Of a DNA stretch of 64,000 nt, positions 1,448 to 59,008 are shown one piece after another. How positions within the stretch are numbered: the stretch's first letter is position 1; each line of letters begins with the position of its first letter. Made by a program: the position numbers and the translations under genes. The notes beneath the pieces were generated by a model, which did not search any database, was not told the origin of the DNA, and worked only from the letters and a program-made list of their open reading frames with translations. Source of the stretch: Selenomonadales bacterium (GTDB lineage Bacteria > Bacillota > Negativicutes > Sporomusales > UBA7701); the NCBI GenBank assembly GCA_029975165.1, contig JARKPR010000036.1, positions 1 to 64,000 of the forward strand, written 5' to 3'.

Positions 1448-4400
1448 CTATGAATCGAACAGCCCCGCCTGCTTATACTGCCTGGGCGTAAAAGCGCTCT
1501 CCCTGAGGAGCTGCCCGGCGGCTATGTCGGCCAGGAACGGCGACGGGGTGCGCGACGTCACCATGATAAGCTCGTCGCGGGCCCGCGTCATGCCGACGTA
1601 GAAAAGCCGCCGCTCCTCGGCCGCATCGCAGTCGCCGCCGCTGCCGCGCAGCGGGAACAGGCCGTCGTTTGCGCCGCAGATGAACGTCACCGGGAACTCC
1701 AGCCCCTTGGCCGCATGGACCGTCATCAGCGCCACCGCGTCCGGCGTGTAAACCTTGCTCCCGCTGCGGACGATATCACTTTCCCGGCCCAGCGTCAAGT
1801 TCTGGATGAAGGAGGCCATCGCGCCGTGCGCCACCGACGTATGCAAAAGCCGCTCCATGCACTTCGTGCCGGCGAGAGCATTGTCGCTTATCCAGGAATC
1901 GATGACCCGCCACGGCTTTTCCGTACGGAGAAGCGGCGCATACTTTTCGGCCATCGCCAGAAAATCCCGGCGGCCGTCCGCTTGGCCGGCCGGCCCCGGC
2001 GCCGCGGCAAATAGTTTCTCCAGGACGGCTGCGGCGTTATTGCCTGGGCAATAACCGTTCGGGGCCGCCCGGCCCGGCGCGGGCAAAGCGATGTTCCTCG
2101 CCTTGAGGCAAAACAACAGGGACGCGGTGTCCGCCGGATTGAGCAAGAACCGGAAAAACGCCAGCGCTTCCCGGACCGGCTTTTCGGCAAGGAAATCGTC
2201 CCGCCCGACGACCACGTACGGGATGCCTTCTTTCAGGCAGCACTGCTCGAGCGCTTCCGCCTGGCGGTTCGTGCGGTAGAGCACCGCGATATCGGCGAAC
2301 CCGCGCGGCTGCCCGGCGGCCGGCCTGGCCTTGCGGGCCGCCGCCCGCGCTTGCGCGGCCAGCATATCGACGCCGCCCACCAGCCGGTTTATCTCCTTGG
2401 CGACGAAAATCGCCGCCGCGAACTCGTCGCCGGTTTCCACAAGCCTGACCTTGGCGCCGCTCGCCCGCGTCGCAGCCAGCAGGCAGGCATCCTCGCCGGC
2501 GGCCTTGCCGGCGATCACTGCCCGGGCGGCGGCGATGACCTCGGGAGTCGAACGATAATTCTGTGTCAGCCGGACGCACCGGATGCCGGGGAACTCGGCC
2601 GCGAACCGCGCGAAATAGCGATGGTCCGAACCCCGGAACCCGTAGATCGACTGGTCGGGATCGCCGATGATGAAAATGCTTTCGCTTTCCCGGCCCCATT
2701 CCGCGATCAGGCGGTATTGCAGCTCGTTTATATCCTGGAACTCGTCCACCAGCAGGTAGGCGCAGGCCTTGGCCGCATCGCCGGCGTCGCCGGCCGCGAA
2801 GCGGTCGAGGACTGCGCGGAGGATATCATCGAAGTCCAGCACGCCGTAATCTTTCAGCTGTGCGCAGTACGCGTCGTAAACCGCCGCCAGGACAGCCGCT
2901 TTTTCCCCGTCGCCGGCCGGCCGGGCGGCGCTTTTGCGCAGCGAGATCTCTTTCAGCGCCTCGCGAGGGGAAATGTTCGCCCCATGCTTTTCACTATTTC
3001 CTCGACGATGGCCAGGGCGGTATCTTCGTCGATGAGCGTCACGCCGTCCTTGCCCCGCCATTGGGACAACATGCGCAGGCAGATGGCGTGAAACGTCCCG
3101 ATGGTCATGGCGCCGGCGACCTGTTGGCCCGCGAAATGCTGCTCGAGGCGGCTGCGCATCTCCTGGGCCGCTTTGTTGGTAAACGTCACGGCGGTGATCT
3201 GGGCGGGCGGCACGCCGCAGTGCTCGACAAGGTGGGCGATCCGGCTGACCAGCGTTTTGGTCTTGCCTGTTCCCGGGCCGGCGATTACCGCGATCGCCCG
3301 GTCGCCGGCGGCAACGGCCGCCCACTGTTCCCTGTTCAAGCCGTAAGGGTGGTCAGCGGCGGCGGCCGGGCCTTGCCCCGGCTCTCCTTCCCTGCCGGGC
3401 TCCTCCGCGGCGGCTGCGGCTGCTGGTATTGCCGGTTCCCGGCGGCAAGTCGCCGCCGCCTCGGCGACCGGCTCGTTCAGCAAAGCCAGCTGGCCGGAGA
3501 ACAGCTCGATTTCGCTCTTGTCCAATACCTTCACGATGCCGTACTCGCCGTCATAGCCGGGCCGGATGTCGACCTTGCCGGCCCGCAGCCTGCGGATGCC
3601 TTCGGCGATGCAGGGGCCGGCCGCCGCTTCGATAGCCGCCGGCGGCGCCTCGCGGAGGATGAACAGTTCGGGCCCGAGGTTCTGCAACAGATGGTCGTAT
3701 TTTTGCCTGACCTTCGTGCTGGCGACCGTGGCCCCCAGCGACGACGCGATGATCTCCTGCAGCGGGACGAGGCTCTCGAAATGCTTGGCCGCCGCCGGTA
3801 CGAGGCCCTCCTCCCTGTCGGCCAGGGCTTCCACCCGGTGCAGCACGCCGACGGTCAGCTTGCCGCCGCATACCGGGCAGACGCCGCCCGCGGCCCTGGT
3901 CGCCGCCGGCTGCCAGCACACCTTGCAGTCCCGGTGCCCGTCATAATGATACTTGCCTTCCTCCGGGAAAAATTCGATCGTCCCGTAGAACTCCTTTGTC
4001 CCCCGGTTCATGAGCGCCTGCCGCATATGCGGATAAGAAAGGCCGGTGGCGAAAATATTGGCTTCGCGGGCCAGATTGGCCGGCGAATGGGCGTCCGAAT
4101 TGGAAACCAGCGTATAGCCGTCGAGGGCGGACAGGCGCCGGTTCATGGGCGGATCGGACGACAGGCCGGTTTCGAGGGCATAGATATGGCCGGTGAGGTC
4201 GCCGAAACACTCCTCGATGGCGTCGAAGCCCGAATAGGCGCCAAAAAGGGAAAAATGCGGCGTCCAGATATGCGCCGGGATAAAGATGGCCTCAGGGCAG
4301 GCGTCGAGGACGATCTCCAGCAGGTCCCGGCTGTCGAGGCCCAGGATCGGCCGGCCGTCCGAACGCAGATTGCCGAGGGCCTCCAGTACGCCGGCGATCC

Positions 4401-28473: not shown

Positions 28474-28878
28474 CTACTGGTTGGCGGGCGGCTGCTGTTG
28501 CTGCTGGAAGCAGGGGGCGTTGCCGGGACCGAAGCCAGGGCCGAAGCCGTGGCGGGGGCCATGGTGGCCGAAGCCTTTGCCCATGCCGGGGATGAAGCCG
28601 TTCTGGAGGCGCTGGTTCATGCGTTCCTGCATCATGGTGTTACGCTGGTCGGCCTGCCATTGGGTGATGTAGCCGAAGTCCACGTATTTCTGGGTAATCT
28701 GCTTCTGGATTTCGGTCATCTGGTTGTAGAGGGGGGCGAGTTCCTGCTTCTGGGCGTCGGTGAGGGTCGGGATCTGGCGCTGGGGACCGGGCTGGCCGGG
28801 GGCGGCGCTGACGACGAGTGAGGCGGCGACGACCAGCACGAGGGCGGCGACGGTGATGACGGCGATGGTCTTTTTCAT
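28474..28878 (-). CDS. secreted DUF2680-type protein with His/Gly/Phe-rich tail
   Basis: A 134-residue exported protein with a signal peptide (residues 1-26, ending VVSAAPG). The central LTDAQKQELAPLYNQMTEIQKQITQKYVDFGYITQWQADQ matches the DUF2680 family, small cell-envelope proteins of unknown function with a Spy-like helical look. The C-terminus (GFGHHGPRHGFGPGFGPG, then poly-Gln) is rich in histidine and glycine and could bind metal. The second ATG (28878) is preferred because the first lies only two bases from the AAGGAGG site. Confidence 0.75.
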   Translation of the reverse strand: MKKTIAVITVAALVLVVAASLVVSAAPGQPGPQRQIPTLTDAQKQELAPLYNQMTEIQKQITQKYVDFGYITQWQADQRNTMMQERMNQRLQNGFIPGMGKGFGHHGPRHGFGPGFGPGNAPCFQQQQQPPANQ

Positions 28879-29067
28879 TTCCATTCCTCCTTCGGTTGTT
28901 TGCTTTTATTATAAAAAACCATTTTGGCAAAAATATGGCGCAGTTGTGACAAAAATGTGAAAACCTGCCGGCGGCGGCGAAGAGGGAATTTTACCCATGA
29001 CAGGCAGGGAACGGGGCCGGGAAAACGAAGTATTAGGGAGAAAATATTGTCGGAGCGGGGTGGCGGG

Positions 29068-52951: not shown

Positions 52952-54115
52952 TTAGAGGCTGTTCATGAGTTCATCGAACTTATGAGCAGCCTCTTTTTTC
53001 ATATCCTTGGTAACGTGCAGATAAACCCTTCTGGTCGTGTCGTCGTCGGTGTGGCCTAAGCGTTCCATGATTTCCTCAAGGCCGACGCCTGCCTCGGCCA
53101 GCAGAGACGTATGCGTGTGTCTTAGCGAATGAGGAGTAAGCTTCGGATTTAATCCGGCTATTTTAAGTATCCTGGCCATCCGTCCTTCGATAAGCTTAAG
53201 GTAGATTGGATACCCGGGATGCTTGTCGACGCAAAAAACAAAATTCTCATCATGCCAGATGTCCCTATTTCGCATCTTCGTTTTGTTCTGTCTGGCCTGG
53301 TGCTTTTCCAATTCTTTGATAATCTTCTGGGAGACAATGATAACTCGCTTGGAGGATCGCGTCTTAGGCGGCTGTAACTCGTACAGCTTTATGTTGTTTT
53401 GGGGATTGAAGTAAGTTTTCGTGATTTTGATGGTTCGGTTTTCGAAGTCGATATCTGACCATTTCAAGGCGCAGAGCTCACCGCCCCTGATCCCCGTGTA
53501 GGCCAGCAAAGTGAAGATAGCGTAGTCGTCTTTCAATCCCGCGTCATGGGCCATTCGCAGAAAAGCTGCCAGCTCTTCTTTTTCAAGGAACTTTGGCAGC
53601 TCATCCGATTTTTCGATATCCTCTAAAGTTTCTACCTTGCGCGGAGGACGGGCATATTCTGTCGGGTCCTTCTTTATGACCTCAAGCTCGACCGCTTTCT
53701 TAAAGATCATCCGGGCTGTTCCGTGAATACCGGCGATAGTCCTTTCGGCAAAGCCGCGTTTCGGCAGATCGTATAAAGCGTTTTGATATTGCTTTTTTGT
53801 TATATCTTTCAACTTTATCCGGTCAAAATAGCGGAGCAAGTTATTGACCTCATGCTGGCGGATGCGGGTCGTACTTTTTTTGACTTGCGAAGAATACATT
53901 TCAAGCCATTCCTGGGAGAACTCCCTGAAAGTGATTTCAGCCTCCTCAATAAAGGTGCCCTTCGATAATTCGTTTGATAACTGGGCCGCAGCTTCTTCGG
54001 CTTCCTTTTTGGTGCGGAATCCGCCAATTTGTCGCTGCTTCCTTTTGCCGTTTTTGTCGATGCCGACATCCATTGTGAGAGTCCAGGTTTTTCCGCGCTT
54101 GTAGAAACTTGCCAC
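52952..54115 (-). CDS. phage-type tyrosine integrase
   Basis: A 387-residue site-specific recombinase with three parts: an N-terminal arm-binding domain (about 1-55, DVGIDKNGKRKQRQIGGFRTKKEAE), a SAM-like core-binding domain (about 60-160) and the catalytic domain with Arg210 (YTGIRGGELCAL), Lys251, His329-x2-Arg332 (HSLRHTH), His355 (LGHTD) and nucleophile Tyr365. The GTG at 54115 is well placed after GGAGG. The GTG at 54121 overlaps it. It directly follows the repressor gene on the same transcript. Its last 16 codons overlap a hairpin repeated after groEL, the probable attachment core. Confidence 0.95.
   Translation of the reverse strand: MASFYKRGKTWTLTMDVGIDKNGKRKQRQIGGFRTKKEAEEAAAQLSNELSKGTFIEEAEITFREFSQEWLEMYSSQVKKSTTRIRQHEVNNLLRYFDRIKLKDITKKQYQNALYDLPKRGFAERTIAGIHGTARMIFKKAVELEVIKKDPTEYARPPRKVETLEDIEKSDELPKFLEKEELAAFLRMAHDAGLKDDYAIFTLLAYTGIRGGELCALKWSDIDFENRTIKITKTYFNPQNNIKLYELQPPKTRSSKRVIIVSQKIIKELEKHQARQNKTKMRNRDIWHDENFVFCVDKHPGYPIYLKLIEGRMARILKIAGLNPKLTPHSLRHTHTSLLAEAGVGLEEIMERLGHTDDDTTRRVYLHVTKDMKKEAAHKFDELMNSL
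52954..52999 (+). repeat. probable attachment core, copy 2, inside the integrase 3' end
   Basis: AGAGGCTG...CAGCCTCT followed by T6 on the plus strand, 41 of 46 bases identical to 49222-49267. It forms a terminator-like hairpin while encoding KKEAAHKFDELMNSL on the minus strand. It marks the left end of the prophage and the right end of the 3.7-kb riboswitch cassette. Confidence 0.6.
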
Positions 54116-54117
54116 GA

Positions 54118-55224
54118 TCACACCTCCGGGTCATGTTTTTTCTTGATGAGATTCAGCGCCATGGTAGCGTGCATTTCTATCATGCTTTGAATAGCTTCCG
54201 GCGTTATGCCGAGCTCTATTGCCGACATGATCGTTTTTGACCACCGGTCATTGGCCCCGGACTTTGCAGTGAGCATGAATTCGTAATCGAACAAGGATGG
54301 TGCGGATTCGCGGATAAGGCCTACCATAGCGCCGATTATTTGCTGATCTGCATCCAGTTCGATGTCTTCATATTCCGGATTGGCCGAACGCAATAATGCC
54401 CGGCCGTCGTTTTCTATGAAGTATCCTATATGGGCATTCTCTGTTTTGCTAATGTCCCGTATCGCAACAACTTGCCCGCTATAAGGCTCGGAACCCTCGC
54501 GGAACAAAACAATGTCGCCAGCGTGAATCCCGGCAAAGATCATTCTATCCCCTTCGGCCCTCGTTGCGAAGTCTGCCTTAATACCGGCAGGGGGGCGTGC
54601 TTGCTCTTCCCAGTTGGATTCATCCAAAAGGGGGACGCTATCTCGAATCTTGCCGAGAACCGGTACTGCGGGATCGTCACTTTCCCTGTGTTCGTAAAGA
54701 GAGAATTGTTTTTCCTTAACCCGATTCAGGATATCGAGAAAGTCCATCTTTGATGTAATGTCAAGATCAAGCTCTTTCAATATCTTTCTGATGCCGCCAG
54801 GGGTGTAGGCAAAGGATATTTCGTGTTTCTGGCGAAAGTTCCGAGACTCTTCTTCGATTAAGTCGATAACTTCCCGGGGAAATTCGATAGAAAACTTCCC
54901 CCGCTTCGACAAAGAAAGGATTGCACTTTCGATTTCGTTATTCAGCCGGCTATGGTCATCGAAGAATCCCGCCACAAGCTCCTTTTTTTCTTCGGGCATC
55001 CCGTCGAAGTAGCCGGCCTTCATCATTAGTTCGGCATAGCTGACCTGCAGATACTTTGACAGCGTCATCAAGGTATCGGGAAACGGCTTCTGTATTTCTC
55101 CTTCAACGCGGGACAGCGTGGTTTGGGATATGCCTGAAGCAACCGATAAATCCTTCTGGGTTTTATATCCAGCCTTTAATCTAAGCTCCCTGATATACTT
55201 GCCCACGCTAAGGTTGTCTTCCAA
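54118..55224 (-). CDS. prophage repressor: XRE helix-turn-helix plus degenerate S24/LexA-like domain
   Basis: A 368-residue regulator. The N-terminal HTH (about 6-62) reads LRLKAGYKTQKDLSVASGISQTTLSRVE. After a linker of about 120 residues comes an S24/LexA fold (about 187-310). The three sites needed for RecA-stimulated self-cleavage are changed: the Ala-Gly bond position is Asp-Ser (IRDSVP, 194-199), the catalytic Ser is Arg227 (EGDRMIFAGI), and the catalytic Lys position is Gly267 (AHIGYFIEN). It should therefore bind operators but not autocleave. It is divergent from the Cro-like gene and cotranscribed with the integrase, whose coding frame starts within its last codons. Confidence 0.88.
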   Translation of the reverse strand: MEDNLSVGKYIRELRLKAGYKTQKDLSVASGISQTTLSRVEGEIQKPFPDTLMTLSKYLQVSYAELMMKAGYFDGMPEEKKELVAGFFDDHSRLNNEIESAILSLSKRGKFSIEFPREVIDLIEEESRNFRQKHEISFAYTPGGIRKILKELDLDITSKMDFLDILNRVKEKQFSLYEHRESDDPAVPVLGKIRDSVPLLDESNWEEQARPPAGIKADFATRAEGDRMIFAGIHAGDIVLFREGSEPYSGQVVAIRDISKTENAHIGYFIENDGRALLRSANPEYEDIELDADQQIIGAMVGLIRESAPSLFDYEFMLTAKSGANDRWSKTIMSAIELGITPEAIQSMIEMHATMALNLIKKKHDPEV

Positions 55225-55645: not shown

Positions 55646-56025
55646 TGAGTGCGAAAGACATACTGCAAAACATCACAACCGAAGAGCTTCCCGATATCCT
55701 CACCGCAAAGCATATCAGTGAACATCTCCATGTTTCGAAGCGACGGGCGTATGAACTGCTTCAGATATCGCCTTCGGGCGGCGGAATCAAAAGTTTTACT
55801 TTCGGACGGTCGGTTCGGGCAAGGAAAGAGGATTACTTAAAATGGCTAGATGCCCTTAACGGCAACTGTCTGACACTCGCGGCAAACGCCAACTCTTTGA
55901 CCAAAAGGAAAGAACGCCAAAAAATAGCTGAAAGAGAAAGGAGCCAAGAAGATGGCAAAACGTTATGCAGTGAAACTGATCGGCGAGACTCCGCTTCTGA
56001 TGCACAAAGACAATATTTCCTATAG
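55645..56025 (+). CDS. excisionase-like helix-turn-helix protein
   Basis: A 126-residue protein. LPDILTAKHISEHLHVSKRRAYELLQ and FTFGRSVRARKEDYLKWL give the winged-helix pattern of MerR/Xis-type DNA-binding proteins. The C-terminal 50 residues are hydrophilic and charged (KRKERQKIAERERSQEDGK). It may be the excision factor or an early regulator. The ATG at 55645 is read after GAGGTG, and the 3' end overlaps the next gene by 74 bases in another frame. Confidence 0.7.
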   Translation: MSAKDILQNITTEELPDILTAKHISEHLHVSKRRAYELLQISPSGGGIKSFTFGRSVRARKEDYLKWLDALNGNCLTLAANANSLTKRKERQKIAERERSQEDGKTLCSETDRRDSASDAQRQYFL

Positions 56026-56614
56026 CGAAAAGGTGAGGGCGTGGTCGAAGGACCCCAACAACAAAAAGATTAGTGTGGCCGGCGATGACCGGACCCCCGC
56101 GTGGAGCTGGCTTGGCTACTGCTACCACGACAATAAACGGCTGACCATTGACGCCGACAATCTGATGTCCGTCCTCCGGGATGGCGGCAAGAGATGTCCG
56201 GCGCCGACCGGCAAGGGCACCATGAAGGCACTCACCCAATCCGGCATCATGGTGAACGAGATCGGCTGGCCGCTTCTGGTGAACGGCGCACCTATCCCCT
56301 GGAGTGACTTTACGCTACTGGAGGATGAGATGGACTTCGCGGTTCACGAACAGTTCGCCCTCGACCACGGCTTCGAACTGTTCGTCAAGCGAGCGAAAAT
56401 TGGGACTGCAAAGCATGTGCGCGTCCGCCCCCGCTTCGACCAATGGGAAGCGGTCGGCAGCTTGACGGTTCTTGACTCCCAAATCACAAAACCGGTTCTG
56501 GAAATGGTTCTGAAATTTGCCGGTGTCTACTGTGGCCTTGGGGATTGGCGGCCGTCTTCGCAGCAGTCTCCCGGTCAGTTCGGGCGGTTTTCCGTTATAG
56601 TAACCGAGGACTAA
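55952..56614 (+). CDS. conserved phage protein of unknown function ('TPLLMH' type)
   Basis: A 220-residue protein beginning KRYAVKLIGETPLLMHKDN, an opening I associate with uncharacterised early proteins of Firmicutes prophages. Other notable segments are WSWLGYCYHDNKRLTIDADNLMSVLRDGGKRCPAPTGKGTMK and FVKRAKIGTAKHVRVRPRFDQWE. The last part is glycine- and aromatic-rich (GVYCGLGDWRPSSQQSPGQFGRF) and might form an RRM/RAMP-like beta fold, but this is speculative. The ATG at 55952 follows AAAGGAG. It is in the early operon ahead of the replication genes. Confidence 0.7.
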   Translation: MAKRYAVKLIGETPLLMHKDNISYSEKVRAWSKDPNNKKISVAGDDRTPAWSWLGYCYHDNKRLTIDADNLMSVLRDGGKRCPAPTGKGTMKALTQSGIMVNEIGWPLLVNGAPIPWSDFTLLEDEMDFAVHEQFALDHGFELFVKRAKIGTAKHVRVRPRFDQWEAVGSLTVLDSQITKPVLEMVLKFAGVYCGLGDWRPSSQQSPGQFGRFSVIVTED

Positions 56615-56912
56615 GGCCAGGATTGGCGGGGCCGAGCTTGGCGGTGTTTGCAAGGCAAGGATTAGGCCTAGTGCGGCGCGGCGAAGCCGGGCAAGGCGGG
56701 GCAAGTCTTGGCGCGGCTAGTGGGGCGTGGCTTATGGCGAGGTTGGGCTCGGCACGGCAAGGCTTGACAGGGCGTGGCTGGGCAAGGCGAGGATTATGGC
56801 TTGGCCAGGCAAGGCACGGCCGGGCGAGGCAAGGCTTGGAGCGAGGCGAGGATAGGTCGGGCGGGGATGGCTAGGCTTGGCCCGGCAAGGCAGGGAACGT
56901 GGCACGGCTACT
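56615..56912 (+). repeat. GGCNN pentanucleotide array, strand-asymmetric and G-rich
   Basis: About 60 consecutive five-base units, mostly GGCNN with common forms GGCAA, GGCGA, GGCTT, GGCGG and GGCAC, and occasional one-base phase slips. Almost all G runs are on the plus strand. Frames across it give low-complexity ARQG/ARRG-type peptides, with no Shine-Dalgarno or conserved domain, so I do not call a gene. It lies inside the prophage early operon, between two real phage genes that read in the same direction. Confidence 0.85.
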
Positions 56913-56935: not shown

Positions 56936-57364
56936 ATGGCAAGGACATTTTTCCGGGGTGTTCCGACCGAGGTGGATGTTCGGCGGCTCGAAGACGCTTT
57001 CGGGTTGCCTGCGGAAGATACTCTCATTGAGTACGCGGCAATCGAGGAGGCCCTACAACTGGCGAAAGAAAGCAACCGCTTTGAAACTGTAGTTCGCGCC
57101 TGGCGCGACAAGTTATACGACCAGTATAACCTTCTCCTGGTCGCAGTTCGCGGCCAAGGGCTAAAGGCGGCCACGCCGGACACCCGGGTTTCTGTCGCGA
57201 GCAAGAAGCAACAGCAAGGACGCAAGCTCATAATGCGAGGCACCCACATCGCCGTTAGAACCGATGCTGAACGCTTGAGCGACGGTAAGAGACGAGAACT
57301 ACGCCAGTTCTTAATCGATGTCCCGACGCGGCTCCGGCTACAAGAATCGCTATCAATGAAATAA
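56936..57364 (+). CDS. prophage early protein of unknown function
   Basis: A 142-residue, mostly helical basic protein (TLIEYAAIEEALQLAKESNRFETVVRAWRDKLYDQYN, then a basic C-terminus GRKLIMRGTHIAVRTDAERLSDGKRRELRQFL). It could bind nucleic acid, but I recognise no family. The ATG at 56936 follows AAAGGAGG. The frame is open far upstream, but only because the pentamer array lacks stops. Confidence 0.65.
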   Translation: MARTFFRGVPTEVDVRRLEDAFGLPAEDTLIEYAAIEEALQLAKESNRFETVVRAWRDKLYDQYNLLLVAVRGQGLKAATPDTRVSVASKKQQQGRKLIMRGTHIAVRTDAERLSDGKRRELRQFLIDVPTRLRLQESLSMK

Positions 57365-57669: not shown

Positions 57670-57837
57670 GTGCTTCGAGGAACCGTCGCCCGCCAACTGG
57701 TGGCCGAATTCAGCGGCAATGCTCTGGAGCCCAAACTGAGCGATGTTCCTGCCGAAAAGCACGCAGAGCTGGTAGCCGAGGTCCAAAGGCTTGCGCAGCT
57801 ACCGGAAAATGTGAAGCAGGGAGCCACAAATGAGTGA
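57670..57837 (+). CDS. 3' part of the interrupted prophage gene (possible re-initiated small protein)
   Basis: A 55-residue frame starting with GTG immediately after the TAA and in the same frame. GTVARQLVAEFSG and LSDVPAEKHAELVAEVQRLAQLPENV are the expected C-terminal helices of small phage proteins that stabilise partner enzymes. GGAAGG lies eight bases before the GTG, so translational re-initiation is feasible. It overlaps the start of the DUF2800 gene by eight bases. Confidence 0.45.
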   Translation: MLRGTVARQLVAEFSGNALEPKLSDVPAEKHAELVAEVQRLAQLPENVKQGATNE

Positions 57838-59008
57838 ACACGCCCTGCTCGCTGCCTCCAGCGCGAAACGCTGGCTGAACTGCCCGCCGAGCGCGAGGGT
57901 CGAGAGCGTCATGCCGGAACAGCAGAGCCTATTTGCAACCGAAGGGTCTTTTGCCCACGAGGTCGCCCACATGCTATTAACGGAGTTCCTGGGCACCATG
58001 CCGGCAGCCGAGTTGGAGGGATGGCGCCGGCGACTGTCCGTCGACGCTCTCTATACTAAGGATTTAGTTGATAATGTCCGGATTTACGTCGAACTGGTCA
58101 TCGAAAAAATCAACGCCGCTCGGGCGGTGTCCCGCGATGCGGTGATTCTCCTGGAGCAACGGCTGGATTACTCTCCTTGGGCGCCAAGAGGCTTCGGGAC
58201 CGGCGATACGGTGATTTACGCCGACGGCTTATGTGAGGTCGTGGACCTTAAATTCGGCAAAGGCGTCTTTGTGCAGGCCGAGAATAATCCCCAGCTACGA
58301 CTGTACGGCCTGGGCGCCCTAAACCGGCTGGATGCCTACCTCTACAGCATCGTAAACGTGACCATGACGATCGTCCAACCGCGACTGGACAGCATCACAA
58401 GCGAAACCCTAAGCGCTGCCGACCTACTCGCCTGGGCGGAGGCCGAGGTCAAACCGAAGGCCCTGCTGGCCTACGAAGGCAAAGGCGAATTCTGCGCCGG
58501 CGATTGGTGCCGATTCTGCAAAACAAAGCATACTTGCCGGCCCCGTGCCGACCAGGCCCTGGCGCTCGAAGCCTATGGCCGCGCGAAACCACAGCAGCTC
58601 ACAGTTCCGGAAGTCGCGGACATACTTGGCAAGGCCGATCTACTAATGGCCTGGGCAGCCGACGTCAAGTCCTGGGCGCTCGAACAGGCCGCGAACCACC
58701 GAATTGTTTATCCTGGCTGGAAACTGGTCGAAGGCCGCAGCAACCGGGCCTATGCGGACCGGGAACAGGTACAGAACAGGTTGATGGAGGCCGGCTACCT
58801 GGACGAAGTGATACACAAAGAGCCGGAGTTGCTCGGCATCTCGGAAATGGAGAAGCTACTCGGCCGAAGAGAGTTCGCCAAGTTGCTCGACGGCCTAGTC
58901 GTCAAGCCTCCCGGGAAACCGGTCCTGGCGCCAGCCAGCGACAAACGGCCGGCAATCAACTCCGTGGAAGCCGTCCGCCTCGACTTCGCCGATCCGTTAC
59001 CAGAATAA
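57830..59008 (+). CDS. DUF2800 phage nuclease (Cas4/RecB-like PD-(D/E)XK with Fe-S cysteines)
   Basis: A 392-residue protein of the DUF2800 family. The nuclease core reads EGSFAHEVAHMLL, then GTGDTVIYADGLCEVVDLKFGKG (Asp and D-L-K). The cysteines NCPPS near the N-terminus plus CAGDWCRFCKTKHTC near residue 235 would bind a 4Fe-4S cluster, as in Cas4 and AddB. Such exonucleases are standard in Firmicutes siphophage replication modules and process ends for recombination. The ATG at 57830 is read within the end of the preceding frame. Next come a small HTH protein and DUF2815. Confidence 0.88.
   Translation: MSEHALLAASSAKRWLNCPPSARVESVMPEQQSLFATEGSFAHEVAHMLLTEFLGTMPAAELEGWRRRLSVDALYTKDLVDNVRIYVELVIEKINAARAVSRDAVILLEQRLDYSPWAPRGFGTGDTVIYADGLCEVVDLKFGKGVFVQAENNPQLRLYGLGALNRLDAYLYSIVNVTMTIVQPRLDSITSETLSAADLLAWAEAEVKPKALLAYEGKGEFCAGDWCRFCKTKHTCRPRADQALALEAYGRAKPQQLTVPEVADILGKADLLMAWAADVKSWALEQAANHRIVYPGWKLVEGRSNRAYADREQVQNRLMEAGYLDEVIHKEPELLGISEMEKLLGRREFAKLLDGLVVKPPGKPVLAPASDKRPAINSVEAVRLDFADPLPE

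Follow-up and report, generated by a model that had tools for sequence, protein, structure and literature searches.

A pentameric GGY/NN array beside a Cas7-like gene in a Selenomonadales prophage, a probable guide RNA array of a VIPR system

VIPR was described in a preprint whose first version dates from 27 April 2026 and whose main text presents it as a phage RAMP protein acting with guide RNAs (vrRNAs) of 9–16 YNNGG repeats (PMC13142463). According to that text, the NN pairs of the guides read DNA as NNxNNxNN, and each guide carries an invariable structured 3′ tail. The protein, Vipr, is about 20 kD and is accompanied by a vap accessory gene, and the systems are found mostly in phages or proviruses (PMC13142463). 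The same main text reports that the vrRNA is transcribed and bound by Vipr, along with dsDNA binding and repression; the type II system characterized is that of Escherichia phage SUSP1 (KT454805), whose guides were used in testing the skip code, and the authors place VIPR before CRISPR (PMC13142463). Literature searches returned no further work on vrRNA or VIPR among the matches listed, and none on other phage pentameric repeats that was relevant by title among the matches listed. The present study concerns a 64,000-nt stretch of DNA from a Selenomonadales bacterium (the window), in which a tract of pentamers very probably constitutes the vrRNA array of a prophage VIPR system (probability roughly 0.93). 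This identification is based on the homology of two neighboring genes to SUSP1 vipr and vap1, the RAMP fold of the predicted protein, the co-occurrence of such genes with such arrays, the array of a sister prophage, and targets that match when one base is skipped. The locus combines a small RAMP protein, adjacent GGY/NN repeats with hypervariable NN, a vap gene, and a prophage setting.

An earlier note, made from the letters of the window, had reported about 60 GGCNN pentamers in strict phase within a prophage early operon. The array is indeed present, although a dynamic-programming parse of the tract gave 56 units from 56615 to 56910. Exactly 5 nt was the length of 48 of these units, and the other eight deviated (Table 1); the phase is strict only within blocks and is interrupted eight times. 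In the 299-nt tract that was scanned, GGC occurs 41 times and 24 successive GGC pairs lie exactly 5 nt apart; in 1000 dinucleotide shuffles the number of such pairs averaged 1.8 and never exceeded 7. The lag-5 identity of the tract is 0.514, compared with 0.314 ± 0.025 and a maximum of 0.418 in 2000 shuffles, so the period of five survived the comparison with shuffled sequence that had been set beforehand. The tract has 23 GGC..GGC pairs per 300 nt, and the runner-up anywhere in the 64-kb window has five. Run with the default score, Tandem Repeats Finder did not list the tract, and no Rfam match at the gathering score was obtained between 52000 and 60000.

The tract begins directly at the vipr stop codon and lies on the same strand. 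Small HTH or excisionase-like genes precede vipr on the plus strand, while the accessory gene that lies beyond the array is followed by a 96-aa ORF without matches and then by genes for an exonuclease, SSB, and DNA polymerase A. This neighborhood looks like a prophage early operon, and the integrase, repressor, exonuclease, SSB, and DNA polymerase genes surrounding the tract support the placement given in the earlier note.

Table 1. Features of the candidate VIPR locus and its context (positions in the window).
Feature	Position	Strand	Remarks
Prophage tyrosine integrase	52952..54121	-	Context
Repressor, CI/LexA-like	54118..55224	-	Context; HTH and S24 peptidase domains
vipr	55952..56614	+	220-aa RAMP (Cas7-like), PHROG 4652; profile, tblastn, AlphaFold2, structure matches
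Putative vrRNA array	56608..56910	+	GGY/NN pentamers in blocks; starts on vipr stop codon
Candidate delimiter GGACTAA	56608..56614	+	7 nt, class GGANYNN; overlaps vipr stop codon
Candidate guide block W1	56615..56658	+	Worn GGY anchors; target not found
Candidate guide block W2	56665..56728	+	Several worn GGY anchors; target not found
Candidate delimiter GGCTTAT	56729..56735	+	7 nt
Candidate guide block W3	56736..56790	+	11 units; one-skip match antisense to satellite portal gene
Candidate delimiter GGATTAT	56791..56797	+	7 nt, GGANYNN
Candidate guide block W4	56798..56837	+	8 units; one-skip match just upstream of satellite integrase ORF
Candidate delimiter GGAGCGA	56838..56844	+	7 nt, GGANYNN
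Candidate guide block W5	56845..56893	+	Includes one 4-nt unit; target not found
Candidate delimiter GGAACGT	56894..56900	+	7 nt, GGANYNN
Irregular units, start (length in nt)	56640 (9), 56659 (6), 56715 (9), 56729 (7), 56791 (7), 56838 (7), 56865 (4), 56894 (7)		
vap1-like accessory gene	56936..57364	+	142 aa, PHROG 5926
Phage exonuclease (DUF2800)	57830..59008	+	Context; replication genes begin

The 220-aa protein encoded immediately before the array matched PHROG 4652 (E = 3.5e-21), the family that also contains SUSP1 Vipr (1.4e-96), and a tblastn comparison with the SUSP1 gene at 28474-29061 gave 27.1% identity over 99% (E = 2e-14). That SUSP1 gene is taken to be the Vipr of the preprint's main text (PMC13142463) because one tract lies upstream of it and several GGT-NN tracts lie downstream. 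An AlphaFold2 model of the window protein, built with 68 sequences, reached a pLDDT of 94.1 and a pTM of 0.89. Its best match in the PDB was type VII Cas7 (Foldseek E = 4.7e-6; VIA-align Z = 11.6 over 163 residues, 3.6 Å), followed by type III proteins such as Csm3, and the best 50 rows from Foldseek and the best 50 from VIA-align all represented CRISPR types III and VII, Cas7-11 included. The protein also contains a glycine-rich C-terminal stretch, GxGDWRP...GRF, which is probably the RAMP G-loop. The accessory protein matched PHROG 5926 (E = 4.1e-6), as did the product of the second SUSP1 gene (1.1e-75); a profile made from the SUSP1 accessory protein and its viral relatives gave the window protein 71.7 bits, and the reverse profile gave the SUSP1 accessory protein 49.5 bits.

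The RAMP fold and the glycine-rich C-terminal stretch are thus shared with Class 1 CRISPR-Cas systems (type VII Cas7, type III Csm3), but the window differs from these in having 5-nt repeats rather than contiguous spacers. No CRISPR-like repeat-spacer array was present among the tandem repeats of the 64-kb window, PADLOC gave no match for five neighboring proteins, and no cas family was found among the 10 proteins scanned. The likeness to SUSP1 is closer, in that Vipr and the accessory gene share PHROG 4652 and 5926, GGY/NN repeats adjoin vipr, one base is skipped, and the targets lie in satellites (for SUSP1, according to the main text of PMC13142463). The repeats of SUSP1 are mostly GGT and form separate units with tails, one guide upstream and three downstream (from the sequence and the main text of PMC13142463), whereas in the window the repeats are mostly GGC and form one continuous array, interrupted by 7-nt words and flanked by vipr and the accessory gene. 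The main text of the preprint also mentions staggered VIPR arrays, in which vrRNAs overlap, and the continuous, internally broken array of the window fits that description (PMC13142463).

The association of Vipr with such arrays was assessed in viral contigs. At least 120 contigs contain the GGCNN pattern, and the 120 listed were used as a sample, as was a listed set of 120 with the backward pattern, which served as a control. A Vipr homolog was encoded by 81 of the 120 listed GGCNN contigs, as detected with a profile iterated on these same contigs (76 ORFs before iteration, seeds included), and by 9 of the 120 listed control contigs, with four contigs common to both sets. Contigs L036 and L052 seem to hold one array and are both counted in the 81, L036 having been omitted only from the database used for the accessory profile and the general skip test. 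The densest array lay on the same strand as the Vipr gene in 79 of the 81 contigs (downstream in 59, upstream in 20) and on the other strand in two. When the contigs were grouped by GGY pairs per 150 nt, 76 had at least 16 pairs and Vipr was found in 64 of these, in 14 of 24 with 12–15 pairs, and in 3 of 20 with fewer than 12; within the control set dense GGYNN arrays occurred in 7 of 9 Vipr-bearing contigs vs 3 of 111 others. The 39 array contigs without a Vipr hit, some with dense arrays, were counted as misses (e.g., L096, L076, and L031); some of them may be cut contigs or may encode Vipr types that have diverged beyond the reach of the profile. The accessory-gene profile matched 23 of the 120 contigs, 21 of which were Vipr-bearing.

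Beyond this sample, a tblastn search with Vipr against 50,697 phage records gave 125 at E up to 0.01, mostly from enterobacterial phages, and the two checked for taxonomy belonged to Ounavirinae. A search of viral contigs with a single-sequence peptide pattern yielded no confirmed close relative. Relatives with 45–56% identity were present in genome records of Geothrix, Pseudorhodoferax, Steroidobacteraceae, Desulfovibrio, and Desulfovibrionaceae, and GGYNN runs were found in all five of these named bacterial records. PHROG 4652 was present in two genomes from a set of 60 to which that of the window belonged, namely, the window's own and another of the same genus, G001. In phage wV8 (L129), deposited 58-bp repeats named DR_4, at 2756-2813 and 4149-4206, lie on either side of the homologs of Vipr and of the accessory gene and may represent guide tails that were earlier recorded as direct repeats.

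G001 carries a sister prophage with the same gene order, in which vipr is 81% and the accessory gene 75% identical to the window's at the DNA level. The genes flanking the array are collinear, whereas the arrays differ in length, ~297 nt in the window vs ~187 nt in the sister, with ends set by eye. Their nucleotide identity is 77%, and random GGC-NN text has a mean of 79%; the comparison therefore shows no retained guides. The G001 array is the cleaner of the two and consists of blocks of 9–10 units, with the delimiters GGATTAT, GGACTAA, and GGACCGA spaced 52 nt apart. Across the Vipr loci examined, all 16 NN pairs are in use. Among the irregular units of these loci, 18 of 28 with a length of 7 nt follow GGANYNN, a form confined to the window, G001, and a further four loci whose Vipr is related to that of the window, and 91 of 97 with a length of 4 nt read GGCA and belong to many other loci. 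The 7-nt words probably separate guides. GGCA, apparently another delimiter word, recurs within the GGCNN arrays of viral contigs L091, L085, L061, L072, L071, and others. No 3′ guide tail resembling the SUSP1 tails could be recognized, only the recurring 7-nt words, and neither delimiter words nor a 5′ seed were seen in the main text of the preprint (PMC13142463). A long GGT/GGC-NN array of Desulfovibrio sp. An276 (L302, 2616-3464) comprises several guides of 14–16 units, most of them ending in GGACTTC or GGACTTT, and its neighboring guides at 3102 and 3184 resemble diverged copies of one another.

Eight blocks, W1–W5 of the window and T1–T3 of G001, were decoded at a one-base skip and compared with genomic DNA. 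Block T2 matched at 18 of 18 positions in G001 and in a second genome, G002; across the 28 genomes searched, all from the order, no other T2 match had fewer than two mismatches. Within two mismatches, the true pattern was found at nine places in eight genomes and the backward control at 12 places in five genomes; since the backward pattern is no rarer at this level, only the exact T2 matches and their position count. T3 matched at 17 of 18 positions in the same element of G001 and G002, 2.4 kb from the T2 site, and its other matches had two mismatches. W4 matched at 15 of 16 positions in G002, where its site and that of T2 are 158 bp apart, at 14 of 16 in G001, and at 13 of 16 in three contigs. 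Elsewhere, W4 was exact at two places in G025 and had seven one-mismatch places in other genera, the backward control giving none; the W4 match is weak when taken alone, its weight coming from its position. W3 was scanned only in fetched stretches, after the other blocks had fixed the element, and matched at 18 of 22 positions in G001, at 16 of 22 at the homologous position in G002, and at 19 of 22 in four satellites of viral contigs. Neither W3 nor W4 has a perfect match on the satellite element.

When the letters of the blocks were shuffled and compared with the two genomic satellites at a skip of one, matches as good were obtained in 0 (T2), 0 (T3), 2 (W3), and 2 (W4) of 1000 shuffles; at skips of 0, 2, and 3, the seven blocks tested (W1 was added later) never fell below 88 of 1000. 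The 1-nt skip rule of VIPR was found for four of the eight decoded blocks (T2, T3, W3, and W4), all with matches to one satellite-like element. W1, W2, W5, and T1 had no target in the DNA searched, several phasings of the three window blocks having been tried, and in the 28 genomes W2 and T1 had only two-mismatch matches (10 and 4, vs 7 and 2 for the backward control). A general skip test, in which 164 runs taken from 66 other loci were compared with 2.4 Mb of DNA, gave no excess at any skip, the best single match being 19 of 20 positions at a skip of one. Two Desulfovibrio (L302) guides of nine units each matched nothing with fewer than two mismatches in 99 genomes, and one of the two was also without a match in the L302 genome itself.

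The T2 site lies within the integrase gene of the element, the T3 and W3 sites (the latter antisense) within the portal gene, and the W4 site between a SpoVG-like gene and the integrase ORF. The skipped base coincides with codon position 3 in all three coding targets (T2, T3, and W3). Mismatches are mostly in units 5 and later, a placement that hints at a 5′ seed and could also be ascertainment. The NN pair preceding a 7-nt word fits at T3 and at three of four W3 sites, not at T2 or W4, and the NN pair following the word fits at T2 and T3, not at W3 or W4.

The target element encodes a Prim-Pol/D5 primase-helicase, a portal, a phage capsid, a SpoVG-like protein, and a tyrosine integrase. It appears to be satellite-like because of this gene content, the lack of a tail or large terminase gene among its listed ORFs, which were profiled in part, and its location between tRNA-Gly repeats; we take it to resemble capsid-forming phage satellites. 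The G001 element spans L271 12228-20000 and L272 1-6951, a 14.7-kb unit with methylase-like genes (delimited by eye), flanked by 48–49 bp repeats of the tRNA-Gly 3′ end. A second unit of ~12.7 kb sits between the intact tRNA and the 14.7-kb element, an apparent tandem integration. The att repeat of the G002 copy was not found, and the contig ends 519 bp past the integrase. The portal of the element shares 31% identity with a portal at G000:C71:73702, which lies on the window's contig, and a search of the window's own genome (G000) gave no homolog that was closer. G001 holds both a VIPR prophage and a satellite with the perfect T2 match, from which we infer that repression fits better than cleavage.

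Following the main text of PMC13142463, vipr, the array, and the vap1-like gene would be transcribed together as part of the early operon, and 7-nt words, in most cases GGANYNN, would divide the array into guides of about 8–11 GGYNN repeats. Vipr, as a Cas7-like RAMP protein, would polymerize along each guide, hold the GGY letters, and present the NN pairs, which would read double-stranded DNA with one base skipped per pair. The RNP formation, DNA binding, and repression assumed here are those of the system described in that text (PMC13142463). Guides of the window and of the sister point to the portal gene and integrase region of one same-genus satellite-like element, and the effect is likely transcriptional repression of a competitor. 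A more detailed reading is given somewhat less than an even chance: that two same-genus prophages maintain VIPR guide sets that are distinct and change quickly but are both directed at the portal and integrase region of a single satellite, one that encodes a capsid and is integrated at a tRNA; that their arrays are continuous, staggered text in which GGANYNN (in other clades, the 4-nt GGCA) serves both as the end of one guide and as the start of the following one; and that about the first six NN pairs anchor pairing as a 5′ seed.

Some features of the window array would also be expected if the locus were VIPR by descent and the array worn, with some or none of its guides still working. The eight irregular units, anchors mutated to AGC, GTC, GAC, and AGT, the imperfect W3 and W4 targets, the lack of targets for W1, W2, and W5, and the cleaner sister array with its 18/18 and 17/18 targets are all consistent with wear. 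This is nonetheless unlikely, as Vipr is intact and confidently modeled, the vap-like gene is intact, and the W3 and W4 matches stay above those of shuffles. Regulation of the prophage's own genes or those of its host, which the position of the array beside lysogeny control genes might suggest, is improbable: no block stood out at a one-base skip in a scan of the window, made without a shuffle control, and T2, T3, and W4 were unmatched in the prophage's own genome within the mismatches allowed.

Two further explanations go back to the earlier note, which had proposed either a function, through R-loop or G-quadruplex formation, replication pausing, recombination, or an RNA element, or a relic of replication slippage. 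Its suggestion of a function, possibly as an RNA element, is supported, whereas R-loops, G-quadruplexes, pausing, and slippage are unsupported because the NN letters carry target information that those readings do not predict. A DNA or RNA structure (G-quadruplex, R-loop, replication pause, or recombination site) would account for the G-rich strand and for a predicted RNA that folds somewhat better than shuffled sequence (z = −3.06, with 1 of 100 shuffles equally good), yet it is very improbable, leaving unexplained the hypervariable NN, the linkage to a RAMP gene, and the one-skip matches to the satellite. We give hardly any credence to a slippage relic or low-complexity coding sequence, even though open frames run through the tract: slippage should produce similar neighboring units, yet all 16 NN pairs are used across loci, and the sister prophages keep their genes but not the length of the array. 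Those frames are of low complexity, as the note had held in seeing no gene signal beyond low-complexity shadows, and no conserved protein-coding region is present in the tract; a protein-coding reading was therefore rejected. The statement that the tract fits no described class is out of date, the class being that of the preprint's main text (PMC13142463).

As a VIPR locus, the array and its neighbors extend the comparison to a Vipr protein that is 27% identical to that of SUSP1, and they support the skip code by sequence alone. Guides of two prophages land on one satellite, and the locus provides guide and target pairs that can be taken directly to the bench; from the delimiter words one can see how the division of a continuous array into guides might work.
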